A stretch of DNA of 47,472 bases. Origin: a bacterium (lineage in GTDB: Bacteria; Planctomycetota; Planctomycetia; Pirellulales; UBA1268). The stretch covers positions 1-47,472 of the forward strand of contig JAPOJV010000008.1 of assembly GCA_029978085.1 (NCBI GenBank), in the 5' to 3' direction. A model generated the notes under the pieces. The model saw nothing but the letters and a program-made list of their open reading frames with translations, had not been told where the DNA came from and did not search any database. Each line of letters opens with the position of its first letter. Within the stretch, counting starts at the first letter, position 1. Below are positions 739 to 47,472 of the stretch, one piece after another. A program made the position numbers and the translations under genes.

Positions 739-1458
739 TCAGCCCGCGGCAGCAGCGTCAGCCGCCACCTTCCGCCGCCGCCAGCCCACCAGGCCTGCCA
801 GTCCAGCACCGATCGCTGCCAACGCATAGGTCGACGGCTCAGGCACGGCCTGGACGCTGATGGAGAGATTGCTAATCGCATTGTTTGTAATCCAACCCGC
901 GCCATCAGTGTTCGACTTGGAATTCCCCGGATACGAATAGCCACTAGAATTTTGCGCACTTGGCGCAACAGCTGCGTTGGAGCCGAGCCAAGTGAAATAG
1001 TTTCCACTCGCAGCGCCCGCTGCTTCGAGAGTGATCCAGTAGGTTGTGCTGGCTGCCAGTTGGACAAGCCCCATGCCGAACGTGTATTGACCATTCGGAC
1101 CGAGGGTCTGTTGCGCTGAGGCAAGAACACTGCCGGTGGGAGAACCAGAAGAATCCGCCACCAGCTTCACTAACGCGTCATTCTCCGGAGCCACGTCGCC
1201 GAGAGCAAATACGACCGACTTAAACTTCAAGAACTCGGGGTTTGTGCCCGTTACGAAAGGAACGGCAAAAGAATTACCAGTCGAACCCGAAACTGTGGAT
1301 CCCACTTGGGCCGTGGCGAAAGTGGTGAATGGATCCGAGGCGGTCGATCCAAGGTTGCCGAACACGACATTCTCCGTTACCGGAGCGGCATGAGCGACCG
1401 ACGCCCCAAGGGCCACAAAACAAACGAGCGTCTTGATGAACGAGCGATGGGACATCAT
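739..1458 (-). CDS. PEP-CTERM sorting domain protein, probable choice-of-anchor type
   Basis: A 239-residue exported protein. The ATG at 1458 (ATGATG pair) gives a classic signal peptide, MMSHRSFIKT followed by LVCFVALGAS, with an AHA cleavage site near residue 24. The middle resembles choice-of-anchor ectodomains rich in Gly, Ser, Thr and Asn. The C-terminal 36 residues carry VPEPST, a hydrophobic helix and the WRRRK cluster of a PEP-CTERM signal, which is recognised by an exosortase (not encoded in the window). The frame stays open to 1587, but that upstream extension would cover the sigma-54 promoter and lacks signal-peptide character, so 1458 is preferred. It is the first gene of a pair with the MEKHLA gene. 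Confidence 0.88.
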   Translation of the reverse strand: MMSHRSFIKTLVCFVALGASVAHAAPVTENVVFGNLGSTASDPFTTFATAQVGSTVSGSTGNSFAVPFVTGTNPEFLKFKSVVFALGDVAPENDALVKLVADSSGSPTGSVLASAQQTLGPNGQYTFGMGLVQLAASTTYWITLEAAGAASGNYFTWLGSNAAVAPSAQNSSGYSYPGNSKSNTDGAGWITNNAISNLSISVQAVPEPSTYALAAIGAGLAGLVGWRRRKVAADAAAAG

Positions 1459-1510
1459 CTGGCGGCATCCGTGAATGGAGTTGTCGGAATCGTTTCCGCC
1501 GAACTCAGAG

Positions 1511-1525
1511 GCAAACCGTGTGCCA
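1511..1525 (-). promoter_or_regulatory. Sigma-54 (-24/-12) promoter for the PEP-CTERM/MEKHLA pair
   Basis: On the minus strand the sequence reads TGGCAC-ACGGT-TTGC, with GG-N10-GC spacing exactly as required for RpoN. The -24 element is at 1525-1520 and the -12 element at 1514-1511, which predicts a transcription start near 1500 and a leader of about 40 bases before the ATG at 1458. The divergent neighbour encodes a sigma-54 activator, and a perfect inverted repeat lies 140-180 bases upstream, the usual enhancer distance. Confidence 0.75.
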
Positions 1526-1616
1526 CGGCTAGCCCCGCTCCTGTTTTGTCTTTGAATGACAAAAAACCACGGGAAATCTTCATCCACGCCTAGGCGCGCG
1601 GGGCAGGCCAGATCGC

Positions 1617-1790: not shown

Positions 1791-2924
1791 ATGGCCGGTG
1801 ACACATCTTCGACTACCGCGGCCTCCCCGTCCCCGTTCAGTCGCGCCCGGGCGTCCCGCGCGGAGAAACGCTGGCCGCGGCTCGCAAGCGCGGCAAAGTC
1901 GGTCCGCCAACTGGAGGAGTCGATCCAGCAGGTGGCCGGGTTCGACTGCTCCGTGCTGATCACCGGCGAGACCGGCTGCGGCAAGGAGGAGGTGGCCCGA
2001 GCGATCCACGCCTCCGGCCCGCGGTCGACGAAGCCTTTCGTGGCGTTGAACTGCAGTGGCCTCGTGGCAGACCTGGCGGAGAGCCAGCTCTTTGGCCACG
2101 AAAGGGGCTCCTTCACCGGCGCCATGGGGTCAACGCAGGGCGTCTTTCGCGCGGCCAATGGAGGCGTGGTCTTCCTCGACGAAATCGGGGAACTGCCGCT
2201 CGAACTCCAGCCGAAGCTGCTGCGGGTGCTGCAACTGTGGGAGGTCACGCCCGTCGGCTCCACCGACGTCCACCGCGTGGATGTGCAGGTGATCGCCGCC
2301 ACGAATCGAGACCTCGAGTCACGGGTCGAAACGGGGGCGTTTCGGGAAGACCTCTTCTACCGGCTCAACACGATCCATCTCGCCGTACCGCCGCTTCGCG
2401 AACGCCGCGAAGACATCCCCCGGTTCATCGAGCACTTCTCGTCCCACTATGCCCGCGAATACGACCGGCCGCTGTGGGTGCCCGAGCCACCGCTGATCGC
2501 CCGGCTCGTCAATCACCCCTGGCCGGGCAATGTGCGGCAGCTGGCCCAGATGGTGCAGCGGGTTTACGTGTTGGAGGATCGCCGCACTGAATTGCTCGAC
2601 GCCCTGCTCGTTGCTCCACAAAGCCCGGCGTCAACGCCTCTGCAGTCAGCATCCGCCGGCACCGCAGATGCACCGGCCGGAAGTCCACCGACCGAAGACG
2701 TCCCGACCGACGAGCCGGCCGTGCCCGTCTATAACCTCGTCGAACTCCGGCGGCTCGCGGTGCGTCAGGCGATGGTGGCCACCGGTGGCCACCGCAGTCA
2801 GGCGGCCGAACTCCTCGGCGTGTCGCTCAACACGATGACGCGACTCGTCGCCGAGTGCTGCCCAGAACACGCGGCCTCACGGGCCGGCCGCAAGCGCAGC
2901 GTGACGACGGCGAAGCCGCGGTGA
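1791..2924 (+). CDS. Sigma-54-dependent transcriptional activator (AAA+ and Fis-type HTH, no sensor domain)
   Basis: A 377-residue enhancer-binding protein that would remodel RNA polymerase-sigma-54. The AAA+ domain has Walker A GETGCGKE (59-66), the sigma-54 contact loop GSFTGA (106-111, the A-to-S form of GAFTGA), Walker B VVFLDE (126-131) and REDLFYRL (185-192). A linker rich in Pro, Ala and Thr (about 275-312) leads to a Fis-like helix-turn-helix near 329-352. There is no receiver, GAF or PAS domain; the roughly 35-residue N-terminus is too short, so the protein resembles PspF in layout. It is divergent from a PEP-CTERM/MEKHLA pair carrying a sigma-54 promoter, its likely target. The control input is unknown. 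Confidence 0.93.
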   Translation: MAGDTSSTTAASPSPFSRARASRAEKRWPRLASAAKSVRQLEESIQQVAGFDCSVLITGETGCGKEEVARAIHASGPRSTKPFVALNCSGLVADLAESQLFGHERGSFTGAMGSTQGVFRAANGGVVFLDEIGELPLELQPKLLRVLQLWEVTPVGSTDVHRVDVQVIAATNRDLESRVETGAFREDLFYRLNTIHLAVPPLRERREDIPRFIEHFSSHYAREYDRPLWVPEPPLIARLVNHPWPGNVRQLAQMVQRVYVLEDRRTELLDALLVAPQSPASTPLQSASAGTADAPAGSPPTEDVPTDEPAVPVYNLVELRRLAVRQAMVATGGHRSQAAELLGVSLNTMTRLVAECCPEHAASRAGRKRSVTTAKPR

Positions 2925-43232: not shown

Positions 43233-43377
43233 CCCAGCGCGGGCGGCTGTGACGCGCACTCCCCTCGCCGGCGGCCGGATCGCACTCGCGGAAAACCCAT
43301 TTTTTCAGCGGCAAACGCCCCATGCGCGGCCTCGGCGAGCAGGTCGCGCCGGCACAAAACGAATGGCGGGCCGACTT

Positions 43378-43392
43378 TGGCACGCCGTCTGC
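43378..43392 (+). promoter_or_regulatory. Candidate sigma-54 promoter for the receiver-like cluster
   Basis: Reads TGGCACG-CCGT-CTGC followed by A: GG-N10-GC spacing is exact and only the first base of the -12 TTGC differs. The predicted start is near 43404, about 97 bases before the first small gene. The upstream palindromes are in enhancer range. Confidence 0.5.
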
Positions 43393-43439
43393 ATTGGAGA
43401 GCAGGCGTCGGGTGGTCACCCCAGTGAAGGTCACCCGGC

Positions 43440-43500: not shown

Positions 43501-43620
43501 ATGAACGTTACCGCCCATGCCTTCAGTCGTGCTGATGCGTATCGGTCGCTGACCCGCACGGACCTGTGCCTGTGCGTCCTGCCGATCGCGGTGTTTCTGT
43601 CGATCGTCTCGCTTGTCTGA
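43501..43620 (+). CDS. Small membrane peptide, 39 aa
   Basis: Starts MNVTAHAFSRADAYRSLTRT and ends with a hydrophobic helix of about 18 residues (LCVLPIAVFLSIVSLV). GAGGAAG lies about six bases before the ATG. First gene of the plus-strand cluster. No family recognised; a single-pass peptide with the short soluble part first. Confidence 0.6.
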   Translation: MNVTAHAFSRADAYRSLTRTDLCLCVLPIAVFLSIVSLV

Positions 43621-43691
43621 TCACGGCTCTCGAGAGAGCTGTGACTCGTCGCCTCTTCTGATTTCGCTTTCGCTCTTCCGGAGGATTCAGC

Positions 43692-43805
43692 GTGCTTGCC
43701 ACCCTTGCCTGCGATGTGTCGTCGGTGCTCCGTTCCGCACCTTCGGTGATCGTCAGTTGCCTCATGGCGGTTTTCGCTGTCGTCATTGTCACGGTCATCG
43801 GCTGA
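43692..43805 (+). CDS. Small membrane peptide, 37 aa
   Basis: Starts at GTG: MLATLACDVSSVLRSAPSVI, then the helix VSCLMAVFAVVIVTVIG to the end. GGAGG lies about seven bases upstream. Second gene of the cluster, same layout (soluble stub, C-terminal membrane helix) as the first. No family recognised. Confidence 0.55.
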   Translation: MLATLACDVSSVLRSAPSVIVSCLMAVFAVVIVTVIG

Positions 43806-43852
43806 ACGACTCCCGTTCGCGAAGCCCACCGCTCACCACAGAGATCTTTCCG

Positions 43853-44350
43853 ATGGAAACCCCCGCTGCATTCGATTCGTCGCCGAGCCTTCACGCGGCC
43901 GGAATTCGTGAGATCGTGATCGTGGACAACTCGTGCGATCGCTACGGCGATTTCGTGCGGGCCGCCCAGGATGGCGAGGTTGGCCTTCACTTTTGTGTAG
44001 ATGGGCGGTCTGCAGTGCGTCTCGCGCGTCGATTCCGCGCTGATGCGTGGCTTGTGTCCGCCGATCTGCCCGACATGTCCGGCTTCGACCTCCTCGACAT
44101 GCTCTCGCCGCACGTCTTGCAGGGCGACGTCGATCCGATGCTGTCGGGCGCCCGGATTTCACTGGATCGCATGGGCGAGGGCCTGAGGGCCGGGATTTTC
44201 ATCGTGTCGGATAGCTACCGCCTGGTGGACGAGCAGCGAGCCCTGGCGTCCGGTGTCTCGGGATACCTCGTGCGGCCGGTGACGCTCGACGTCATTCGGA
44301 ATTCCCGCCGGCCGGCGACCGCCACGGCATCGGCCCTCGATCCTGCCTGA
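43853..44350 (+). CDS. Receiver-like protein without the phospho-acceptor (pseudo-receiver 1)
   Basis: A 165-residue protein whose residues 18-150 follow the response-regulator receiver pattern: IVIVDNSCD (D25 where the acidic pocket lies, but N26 instead of a second Asp), ADAWLVSADLPDMSGFDLL, GIFIVSDS and LVRPVTLDVI. Aligned without gaps, the phospho-acceptor Asp is S69 and the conserved Lys is R141. It can thus not be phosphorylated in the usual way. No output domain. About half its residues match the protein at 44971-45510. It has a loop insertion near 85-112 relative to its paralogue. Confidence 0.75.
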   Translation: METPAAFDSSPSLHAAGIREIVIVDNSCDRYGDFVRAAQDGEVGLHFCVDGRSAVRLARRFRADAWLVSADLPDMSGFDLLDMLSPHVLQGDVDPMLSGARISLDRMGEGLRAGIFIVSDSYRLVDEQRALASGVSGYLVRPVTLDVIRNSRRPATATASALDPA

Positions 44351-44440
44351 CGGCGGATCTCATCGTCTCTTCTTCTCTTCACGTTTTTCATCCGTTTGAC
44401 ATCTCTTCGCTCGATTTCATTCGTCTGGGGGTTTTGAGCT

Positions 44441-44887
44441 ATGGGGGCAATTCGTTCATCGGTTCAGACGTGGAGCCAGGTGCTGGCTCTGATTGCTGCC
44501 GCGGTCATGAGCGTGGGTAGCTTCGTCCAGACAGCACGTGCCGAAGGCGTGCTCGGGAGCGGGGCGTTCGTTTCCGGTGGGCTACAAGAGGATGGGTCTT
44601 TGACCGATGCTCTCGGCAGCACGCACCTTGAGGCTCCGGCAGTGGCCGAGCCATCTCGCCCGGCCAGCAGCCGCATGGCGATCCGCCCCGCCTCGCCCGA
44701 TGAGCGGGCCGATGCCGGCGGCGACTTCTTCCGCCTTTCGAGGATTGCCCTGCCGCTCGTGCTGCATTCGACGGTCGGCGAGCCGGCCGATGCGGTTGTC
44801 ATCGCGAGCAGCGTCCGCCCGATGACCGGCACGATGGTCGGCCTGCGTCCCCATCCGCGGACGTGGGGGAGCACGCTCGGCCGCTGA
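44441..44887 (+). CDS. Small exported protein, 148 aa
   Basis: A signal peptide (WSQVLALIAAAVMSVGSFVQ, then TARA with likely cleavage after residue 34) is followed by a 114-residue mature part, which includes ADAGGDFFRLSRIALPLVLH and VGLRPHPRTWG. No family recognised. It lies between the two receiver-like genes. Confidence 0.7.
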   Translation: MGAIRSSVQTWSQVLALIAAAVMSVGSFVQTARAEGVLGSGAFVSGGLQEDGSLTDALGSTHLEAPAVAEPSRPASSRMAIRPASPDERADAGGDFFRLSRIALPLVLHSTVGEPADAVVIASSVRPMTGTMVGLRPHPRTWGSTLGR

Positions 44888-44970
44888 CGCGGGCCGGGAC
44901 GTTTCCCGCGGCCTTTCCCGGATCCCAACACCTCATCATTCAACTCATTTCCTTCGTCAAGGAATCTCAC

Positions 44971-45510
44971 ATGCACTCTTCTGCCCATGACGCCCCCATG
45001 ATTGGCTCCGATCTCGGCCTTTCGGCCCCCAACGTGGTCGTCGTCGACCCCCGATTCGATGCCTACAGGCAACTCGCCGCCAGCGCCCGGCTGGGGCGGA
45101 TCGGCCTCCACTTTCGCTCGAGCGGCGCCGACGCGATCAAACTCGCCCGGCGGCTGCGAGTCGATGCCTGGCTAATCGCGCCGGACCTCGACGACATGTC
45201 GGGCCATGACCTGGTGCAACTGCTCAAAGAACGGCACGCCGGCGAGGACTTCGCCAAGGTGGCGATCGTCGCGGCTTCGGGCACGACGGGCCGCCAGAAG
45301 GCGATCGCCGAGCGGGAGGCGATCGAATGCGGCGCCGACTCGCTGGTCTCGCACCCGATCACCCTCCGCGATCTGGAGCGGCTCCTCGATCTGCCCGTCG
45401 AGGAGCGGTCGAGGGTGTTCGCCGACACGGGTGCCTCTCGGGCATTCATCACGCTTCCGGTCGGCGTCGGGGCAGCGGTCGTCGCGATCGCCGTCCTCAT
45501 GCTCGGCTGA
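44971..45510 (+). CDS. Receiver-like protein with C-terminal membrane tail (pseudo-receiver 2)
   Basis: A 179-residue protein, paralogue of 43853-44350: VVVVDPRFDAYRQLA, IGLHFRSSGADAIKLARRLR, VDAWLIAPDLDDMSGHDLVQ, KVAIVAASGT, SHPITLRDLERLL. The phospho-acceptor position is A70, the second acidic-pocket Asp is P27 and the conserved Lys is H128. Residues 158-179 (AFITLPVGVGAAVVAIAVLM to the end) form a membrane helix, so it is tail-anchored with the receiver fold in the cytoplasm. AAGGA precedes ATG 44971. Confidence 0.78.
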   Translation: MHSSAHDAPMIGSDLGLSAPNVVVVDPRFDAYRQLAASARLGRIGLHFRSSGADAIKLARRLRVDAWLIAPDLDDMSGHDLVQLLKERHAGEDFAKVAIVAASGTTGRQKAIAEREAIECGADSLVSHPITLRDLERLLDLPVEERSRVFADTGASRAFITLPVGVGAAVVAIAVLMLG

Positions 45511-45546
45511 TTCGATCACCATGTGTTTTCATCAGGAGCTTTGCGC

Positions 45547-46023
45547 ATGAACTCTTCGAACCGCGCTCACGTCGGGTTGCGACGTCGTTCGCCAGCCAAC
45601 AGGTCTCGCTCGGTGCAGCCTTTCATGTCGCTCGCGTGCGGCGGATGGCTGCTGGCGGTATCAGCCGGTCTGCCCGCTCTCGCGGAGGGGCTTGGGGGGA
45701 TCTCGGAACTGGGCCCGACGCCGACGGGCCTGGCTGCGACGGCCTTCCTCAATCCCCTGCCCGCACAGCCTCTGGCTGGGTTGCCCTCCCGCGATACCGC
45801 AGCCGCGACCGTGAAGCCACCGGTGTCGTGGCGACCGCGGTCGCCAGCGGAGCGGCTGCTGCCCGAACCAGGCAACATCGATCCGTTTCCCCACACGCGC
45901 CGCGCGGTGCCCCTGCTGGTGCCGGACGTCATCGAGGTCACCTCGCAGAGGCCGTTGCCGGCACGCGCGATGCGTGGCCCATCGGTCGGCGTGCCATGGC
46001 GGATTCCGGGCTCCACCCCGTGA
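45547..46023 (+). CDS. Proline-rich exported protein, 158 aa
   Basis: A basic N-terminus (about 26 residues) and hydrophobic core (MSLACGGWLLAVSAGLPALA) with an ALA cleavage site at residue 47. The mature part is rich in Pro, Ala, Leu and Arg (LPAQPLAGLPSRD, WRPRSPAERLLPEPG). AGGAG lies nine bases before ATG 45547. The stop overlaps the next start (GTGA). No family recognised. Confidence 0.68.
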   Translation: MNSSNRAHVGLRRRSPANRSRSVQPFMSLACGGWLLAVSAGLPALAEGLGGISELGPTPTGLAATAFLNPLPAQPLAGLPSRDTAAATVKPPVSWRPRSPAERLLPEPGNIDPFPHTRRAVPLLVPDVIEVTSQRPLPARAMRGPSVGVPWRIPGSTP

Positions 46024-46307
46024 TCGCAGGGGCTCGCCATCGATTCCTTCGAGGCGTCCGCGCAGCCGCCGTTGCTGCTGTGGTGGCTGCATGCGGCGTG
46101 ATCGTCGCCCCGCGGTCGGCACTCGCCCAGAACGACTGGCAGTTTCCCGATCCGTATTTCGGTGTGCCCCAGCCCGCGAACCCGGCCGCGCCATCGATTC
46201 AGCGGCGTTACCGCACCGAGATCGGGCCGCCGGCCGTGCGTCGCCCGGCAGAGCAGCCGCGGCATCCGCAGCGCTGGCGGCGGCATCGCCCGCCGCGCGA
46301 CCGCTGA
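46020..46307 (+). CDS. Small basic exported protein, 95 aa
   Basis: GTG start overlaps the preceding stop by four bases. Signal peptide (FLRGVRAAAVAAVVAACGVI, cleavage after SALA near residue 36), then a 59-residue mature part with QNDWQFPDPYFGVPQPANPA and an Arg/Pro/His-rich end. An upstream ATG at 45996 in the same frame is possible. No family recognised. Confidence 0.6.
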   Translation: MIAGARHRFLRGVRAAAVAAVVAACGVIVAPRSALAQNDWQFPDPYFGVPQPANPAAPSIQRRYRTEIGPPAVRRPAEQPRHPQRWRRHRPPRDR

Positions 46308-46331
46308 TTCGTGTGCCATCGGGGGAGCGTG

Positions 46332-47472
46332 ATGCGACATGCCGCAGCCACAGCCCCGAGCCGCTGGCGACGAGTGATCGTCGCGGTGCTGCTCACTGCA
46401 GCCTGGCTCGCCCCCGCGACGTGCCAGGCGATCGTCGGCAGCGATTCGTCTGCCACCACGTTCACCGGCACCTACGTCAACGACGTGATCGGTGCAGGCA
46501 CCTTCTACAACCTGGGATTCGGTGGCAGTAGCGCGATCGTGGCCAACATCGAGGCTGGCACGATCTGGAACGGCCACGAGACACTGACGGGGCGTGTCTC
46601 GCAGTTCATTGCTGATCCGGCAATCGTGGCCACGGGAACCACGCAGCTTGGCCAGTTCGACTGGCACGCCACGATGGTGGGCCAGGCGCTCGGTGGCACC
46701 GGCCTCTACACCTATCAGGACGGCATCGCGCCGACGGCGCAGCTCTGGTCGGGGGCGATCGCGACGCAGTGGCAGGGGAGTGGATTTACCGGCAGCTTCG
46801 CCGCCACCGACGCGAGCTTTTTTTACCCCTACGTGACCGCGATGCGAACGGGCATCGTATCGGGCTCGTCCACACTCAGGGCCAAGGTGGTGAATAGCAG
46901 CTGGGGGTACACCGACTCCGCGGGCGAGACTGACCGGACGATCGCAATCGATGCGCTGACACGCGAGAACAACGTCGTGACCGTGATCGCCGCCGGCAAC
47001 GCAGGGCCGGCCAGCAACACGGTGGGCGGCCCCGCCTCGGGCTACAACGGCATCGCCGTGGCCGCCACGACCGGAGCAATGACGGCCGCTCCGTTTTCGA
47101 CCGTGGCCGAATTTTCCAGCCGCGGCCCAGGCGACTTTTACAACCCGGTGTCGGGGACGACCGTGCTGAACGTCCGGCCCACGGTCGACATCGCCGCCCC
47201 CGGTGATGAACTCACGCTGGCCCTCTACGGCGGCACGACCGGCGGCAACAAGACGGGCGTGAACCCCTGGCCCAGTCCGGCGTACTACGCGGGACTGATG
47301 AACGGCACGAGCTTCGCCGCTCCGATCGTCGCCGGCGGGGCCGCCCCCATGATCGTGTGCGCACACCACGCCCACCCCTTGCCCTGCCGGGGTAACCGGG
47401 CGGCAACGCCCGAAGGCGGCTACCTCCGCACCGCCCGTCGCCGTGCTCGGCGGGTCTTCTTGATGTCGGCGC
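46332..47472 (+). CDS. Subtilisin-like S8 serine peptidase, interrupted or cut by the window end
   Basis: Signal peptide (VIVAVLLTAAWLAPATCQA) then an S8 domain. H112 (DWHATMVGQALGG), the oxyanion N223 (IAAGNAGP) and S327 (NGTSFAAPIVAGG) are in place; the catalytic Asp position carries E74 (ANIEAG). The family resemblance ends at residue 341 (position 47354); the frame stays open to the window end but the translation becomes Arg/His-rich and unlike a protease. So the readable enzyme is 46332-47354. It lies directly downstream of three small exported proteins. GGGGGAG precedes the ATG closely. Confidence 0.78.
   Translation, partial: MRHAAATAPSRWRRVIVAVLLTAAWLAPATCQAIVGSDSSATTFTGTYVNDVIGAGTFYNLGFGGSSAIVANIEAGTIWNGHETLTGRVSQFIADPAIVATGTTQLGQFDWHATMVGQALGGTGLYTYQDGIAPTAQLWSGAIATQWQGSGFTGSFAATDASFFYPYVTAMRTGIVSGSSTLRAKVVNSSWGYTDSAGETDRTIAIDALTRENNVVTVIAAGNAGPASNTVGGPASGYNGIAVAATTGAMTAAPFSTVAEFSSRGPGDFYNPVSGTTVLNVRPTVDIAAPGDELTLALYGGTTGGNKTGVNPWPSPAYYAGLMNGTSFAAPIVAGGAAPMIVCAHHAHPLPCRGNRAATPEGGYLRTARRRARRVFLMSA
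47355..47472. other. Structured GTGTG-starting sequence interrupting the subtilase (possible group II intron 5' end)
   Basis: Beginning at GTGTGCGCACACC, the sequence no longer encodes subtilase. It contains a 6-base stem closed by a GNRA tetraloop (CGGGCG-GCAA-CGCCCG, 47397-47412) and other short GC stems. Group II introns start with GUGYG and are rich in such hairpins. Only 118 bases are available, so an insertion sequence or another structured element is also possible. Confidence 0.4.

Follow-up and report, generated by a model that had tools for sequence, protein, structure and literature searches.

In phage-shock regulation, PspF, a sigma-54 activator without a receiver domain, is controlled in trans by PspA. 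Receiver domains may also occur in a degenerate form, and one such case is FrzS, an aspartate-less receiver protein with an alanine at the phosphorylation site, as given in the accessible part of PMC4395418. According to the accessible part of PMC12632262, the FrzS pseudo-receiver binds SgmX, whereby type IV pili are activated, and the working mode of bacterial pseudo-receivers is there called an open question. Sigma-54 sites at PEP-CTERM genes, finally, have been reported in Proteobacteria (PMC1569441, accessible part). The planctomycete locus discussed below holds a group of genes, namely A, C, and E, that looks like an undescribed accessory to the PEP-CTERM anchoring system.

The window, i.e., the whole stretch of DNA that was analysed, is the entire contig C128 (47472 bases), part of a 3.3-Mb draft genome. 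Eight open reading frames, A to H, lie on its plus strand at 43501-47354; all are present, as a preliminary description of this DNA had claimed, with short gaps or overlap (71, 47, 90, 83, 36, -28, and 24 bases from A to H in order). Compared with the closest relative (L029, genome G010), dN/dS is 0.24 for A, 0.16 for B, 0.13 for C, 0.34 for D, 0.18 for E, 0.25 for G, and 0.23 for H; values of 0.13-0.34 point to purifying selection and thus to real genes rather than chance frames. F has a 53%-identical homologue at the same position in L029. When the window's reading frames were searched against Pfam, A, B, D, F, and G gave no match above cut-off. Searching with C recovered relatives that are metagenome genomes of planctomycetes, for the most part from lakes. 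Many are fragmented, and their genes were called with a self-made, simple codon-usage caller, so that start positions in them are approximate.

C (43853-44350) encodes an aspartate-less receiver that is soluble and carries, behind alpha3, an insert specific to the family; it lacks a membrane anchor and sometimes occurs alone. E (44971-45510) encodes an aspartate-less receiver followed by a predicted C-terminal membrane helix (tail anchor). Both match Pfam Response_reg under the cut-off of 30.2 bits (C with 24.6 bits, E with 27.9 bits). In the AlphaFold models, C is a complete (beta-alpha)5 receiver fold and E a receiver fold with a hydrophobic helix (residues 167-178) at its extreme C-terminus; the closest PDB structures to both are ordinary receiver domains. 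The two proteins are paralogous (99.7% profile match) and form separate, well-supported groups.

None of the 56 C and E sequences has an aspartate at the phosphoacceptor position, at the end of beta3. It is replaced by Ala (15), Ser (10), or Asn (4) in the C copies and by Ala (26) or Ser (1) in the 27 E copies. All 56 have lost the second of the acidic residues after beta1, and the lysine before the beta5 proline is missing in all but 5. Retained are the beta5 proline itself, the glycine that follows beta3, and acidic residues in the turn from beta3 to alpha3. C and E are thus no two-component response regulators as defined by the phosphoacceptor aspartate at the end of beta3, and their phosphorylation by the usual route is not possible; having the (beta-alpha)5 fold without this residue, they are aspartate-less receivers in the sense used in the accessible parts of PMC4395418 and PMC12632262. 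The preliminary description had already spoken of degenerate receivers, one of them at the membrane. The degeneracy holds in every copy, and the membrane position agrees with the helix predicted for E.

The alanine found in 26 of 27 E copies is also what FrzS has at this site, and some C genes adjoin pseudopilin-like genes (L094, L095). C and E could thus be positional scaffolds of the FrzS kind, which position a surface structure at a single place in the cell, with PEP-CTERM proteins as its parts. Most sites, however, are without pilus or motility genes, and A and E suggest a general placement in the membrane, which makes such a role improbable in our view.

Two micropeptides precede C. A (43501-43620; 39 aa) ends in a membrane segment of the pattern LTxxDxxLCxxPIxxFLSIVSLV, is under purifying selection, and shares its phylogenetic profile with C and E. 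B (43692-43805; 37 aa, GTG start) likewise ends in a membrane segment (SSLLVSCLxAxxAVxxVVxG) and is found at the same position in eight other genomes. In G031 (L161, L162), several micropeptides resembling A directly precede PEP-CTERM genes, without any pseudo-receiver; a sigma-54 site was looked for before these G031 peptides and none was found.

The core of the cluster is A, C, and E. Within one freshwater Pirellulales family, A together with C and/or E is found again and again, in more than 10 unrelated neighbourhoods, and among 36 genomes of that family, A is present in 23 of the 24 that have C or E and in 0 of the 12 that do not. The single exception is G004, where the contig begins inside C. 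Homologues of E occur in 35 of 60 relatives, the strong ones being confined to the window's own family; matches at the level of the order are weak and mostly against long receiver-containing frames. At the aroB site the genes keep the order A-(B)-(D)-C-E, the cls/hemL site holds A-E plus a small PEP-CTERM gene (c13), and further neighbourhoods carry A-C-E, A-C, or C or E singly. In G023, G026, G029, and G033, aroB faces a PAP2 phosphatase gene directly, with no A, C, E, or H between them, and these empty sites mark the borders of the inserted stretch. The PAP2 phosphatase and the DevB/DevA/DevC-like transporter were considered as module parts and rejected, as they face aroB directly where A, C, E, and H are absent.

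The preliminary description had treated all eight genes as one unit, to be abandoned if they did not co-occur elsewhere. Conserved co-occurrence stands, since the core recurs in related genomes; the unit as a whole does not, since B, D, and F vary among lineages and G and H are also found without the core. The same description had pointed to the absence of a local histidine kinase or DNA-binding output, and indeed there is neither at the cluster.

D (44441-44887; about 148 aa) and F (45547-46023) are both predicted exported proteins. Judged by profile comparison, D belongs to a family that we call c30 and F probably does as well, as a divergent paralogue of D: the L029 copy of F matches the c30 profile (E 1.5e-4), and the match of the window's F is not significant (E 1.2). 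G (45996-46307) is a small exported basic protein with the mature N-terminus QNDWQFPDPYFG. It is family-specific, present in single copy, often near aroB, and has a conserved mature start, QNDWQ(F/Y)PDP (also in L066, L147, L149, and L152). We rejected G as a core part because this single-copy gene is present in genomes without A, C, and E; its occurrence near aroB in such genomes makes it a neighbour instead.

Two links go beyond the preliminary description, namely a sigma-54 promoter and a PEP-CTERM neighbour. The predicted sigma-54 (-24/-12) promoter, TTGGCACGCCGTCTGCA, lies at 43377-43393 on the plus strand, about 123 bases upstream of the start codon of A. The 7-mer TTGGCAC is strongly enriched upstream of A (34 of 56 stretches, against at most 9 in shuffles) and is, by its sequence, the -24 part of this putative promoter. 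The longer motif TGGCAC-N6-TGC occurs 48 times in the 680 kb of fetched loci; 40 of these occurrences are just upstream of a module's first gene, where about 0.07 would be expected, and the remaining 8 are as many as the composition background predicts. Among the 45 module operons whose upstream DNA is intact, 43 have the site (40 exact and 3 near matches); it is lacking only in L034 and L040. The GG and GC doublets, the -24/-12 spacing, and the conserved position before the operon are thus all those of a sigma-54 promoter, as far as sequence can tell. C standing alone has its own site at L061, L065, and L097.

PII is a classic sigma-54 target. The whole genome of the window has 3 perfect TTGGCACRNNNNNTGCW sites, namely at the A/C/E operon, at a PII gene, and at a gene with TPR and RNA polymerase alpha C-terminal-like domains, and finding PII genes with the same motif supports its reading as a sigma-54 site. 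The conserved TPR/alpha C-terminal-like gene is preceded by the motif at G000:C73 (L194), G017:C85 (L199), and G008:C73 (L202), as well as at G035:C180 (L210) and G029:C97 (L223). Another sigma-54 operon (L196, L204, L209) encodes a protein of 161-167 aa that belongs to no known family and is followed by a PEP-CTERM gene in L196 (FGE-sulfatase-like) and L204. The 161-aa gene preceding the FGE-like PEP-CTERM protein in G017 and G008 was considered as a further pseudo-receiver and rejected, as it has no profile similarity.

Not only the module has this motif: it is found upstream of PEP-CTERM genes in G008 and G017 as well. At the other end of the window, a sigma-54 activator without a receiver domain (Sigma54_activat, Fis HTH; 1791-2924, plus strand) is divergent from a PEP-CTERM gene (739-1587, minus strand) with its own sigma-54-like site (1511-1525, minus strand). 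Between the two lies a long inverted repeat (TTCACAGGAATTGCGAA ... TTCGCAATTCCTGTGAA; 1666-1704), possibly an activator site. The activator matches TIGR02915 only under its cut-off. This arrangement, the sigma-54 promoter that the A/C/E operon shares with other PEP-CTERM genes, and the proposal (in the accessible part of PMC12632262) that pseudo-receivers act on partner systems all speak for the main rival explanation, a regulatory feedback. Serving as decoy receivers or as heterodimer partners, the stand-alone aspartate-less receivers would here influence, in trans, a sigma-54 activator or the kinase belonging to it, and the operon would in this way tune PEP-CTERM gene expression. The receiver-less activator is 41 kb from the operon, however, and any link between them hypothetical, and a purely transcriptional role would explain neither micropeptide A nor why E has a membrane anchor; we consider the feedback unlikely.

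PEP-CTERM tails, which were called partly by pattern and partly by Pfam, are rare, with 17 matches in the window genome. The end of a PEP-CTERM-like reading frame is found within 4.5 kb of the module at 26 of 54 sites, a count that overstates the number of independent events since orthologous sites are not independent, and it lies on the module's strand every time; many of the other sites, that of the window included, are interrupted by the end of a contig. Each of the three modules of G035 has a PEP-CTERM reading frame at most 1.3 kb away, downstream in two cases and just upstream in the third; a downstream partner has a chance probability of about 0.013 per site. The same-strand partners come from unrelated families, i.e., subtilases, an FGE-sulfatase-like protein, a passenger-repeat protein, and small c13 proteins. 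That A/C/E, the sigma-54 promoter, and a PEP-CTERM partner are genetically linked is what we observe, and we hold it with high confidence.

A and its companions might nonetheless merely share a sigma-54 regulon and a neighbourhood with the PEP-CTERM genes and have a role of their own. No PEP-CTERM gene was found near the module at the aroB sites of G015, G018, and G031 or at L061, L063, L064, L065, and L097, and at three of these (L061, L065, L097) C stands alone under its own sigma-54 site. Such independence is quite unlikely given the same-strand adjacency to unrelated PEP-CTERM proteins in independent neighbourhoods, including 3 of 3 sites in G035.

In the window, the PEP-CTERM partner is H (46332-47354), the N-terminal part of a subtilase matching Pfam Peptidase_S8. 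The gene is truncated by the contig end; its remainder starts contig C124 (L138) and has at its end a PEP-CTERM tail (C124:676-753) that matches PF07589 above cut-off and has the PEP motif, membrane segment, and basic tail of this class. Next on C124, as is also seen in relatives, comes a PAP2 phosphatase gene in convergent orientation. The last bases of the window (about 47355-47472, some 118) align to no homologue, with the divergence starting just after the catalytic serine motif, and we regard them as a contig-edge tail. The idea that this end holds an intron or an inserted element was rejected, as there is no Rfam match, the end is not repeated in the genome, and C124 continues the gene; the contigs of several relatives likewise break inside H. 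In this putative protease, the aspartate position of the Asp-His-Ser catalytic triad that marks S8 enzymes reads Glu (NIEAG/NLEAG) in 20 of 20 homologues, with the Pfam S8 match and a GTSFAAP motif present. The motif N(I/L/V)EAG-x-x-WNGH occurs in homologues including L066, L067, L059, L031, L032, and L060, and the family's serine motif is retained in every copy that includes this stretch of the gene. A sequence search found no solved relative of H. The preliminary description was right to place a subtilase here, yet this is just one of several kinds of PEP-CTERM partner and also occurs without the core.

The genome also encodes an exosortase (TIGR02602 above cut-off at C220), which does not adjoin the cluster and has no core genes around it. 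As a discriminating profile, exosortase presence was rejected: it is found almost throughout the order and so says nothing specific. TIGR02602 gave no match in G035 and G020, although both have modules.

Our preferred reading of the linkage is a sigma-54-controlled, membrane-tethered, phosphorylation-independent scaffold serving the co-expressed PEP-CTERM proteins, a mechanism that we infer and, taken as an entire statement, put forward tentatively, at somewhat less than even confidence. C and E would be fixed protein-binding modules that are not phosphorylated and whose quantity is set by sigma-54 transcription. E, tethered by its last helix to the inner membrane on the cytoplasmic side and packing against A (and B), would recruit C. 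The resulting scaffold could then hold or deliver the co-made PEP-CTERM precursor before exosortase removes its basic cytoplasmic tail. The cluster's role in surface assembly or as a signalling scaffold, as first suggested, is likewise something we infer. Going further, a tail-anchored pseudo-receiver, a soluble partner, and a dedicated membrane micropeptide might together be a new kind of adaptor, one that handles PEP-CTERM precursors at the inner membrane and in which the acidic pocket (where the phosphorylation site was lost) perhaps binds the precursor's basic tail; we think this rather unlikely.

Among known systems, the phage-shock pair PspF/PspA resembles the possible logic of the feedback explanation, in which a receiver-less activator meets a separate membrane-associated regulator. 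On the other hand, there is no recognised relation to PspA, and the tie between the window's activator and the A/C/E operon is hypothetical. Like the aspartate-less receivers in the accessible parts of PMC4395418 and PMC12632262, C and E combine the receiver fold with the lack of a phosphoacceptor aspartate. They differ from the pseudo-receivers described there in having no effector domain and in that the tail-anchored member is paired with genes for a micropeptide and surface proteins. A conserved effector-less pair, with one member in the membrane, a defined class of partner, and a defined promoter type, makes the pseudo-receiver question testable. With the PEP-CTERM/exosortase (EpsH) sorting system and its regulation by PrsK/PrsR (PMC1569441, accessible part), the locus shares PEP-CTERM substrates, a genomic exosortase, and sigma-54 promoters at substrate operons. 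In contrast to that system, the cluster is without PrsK/PrsR, and C and E have neither a phosphoacceptor nor ATPase or DNA-binding domains. The accessible part of that paper does not name A, C, or E among its components. For planctomycetes, the three genes are new candidates for an accessory role in PEP-CTERM anchoring.
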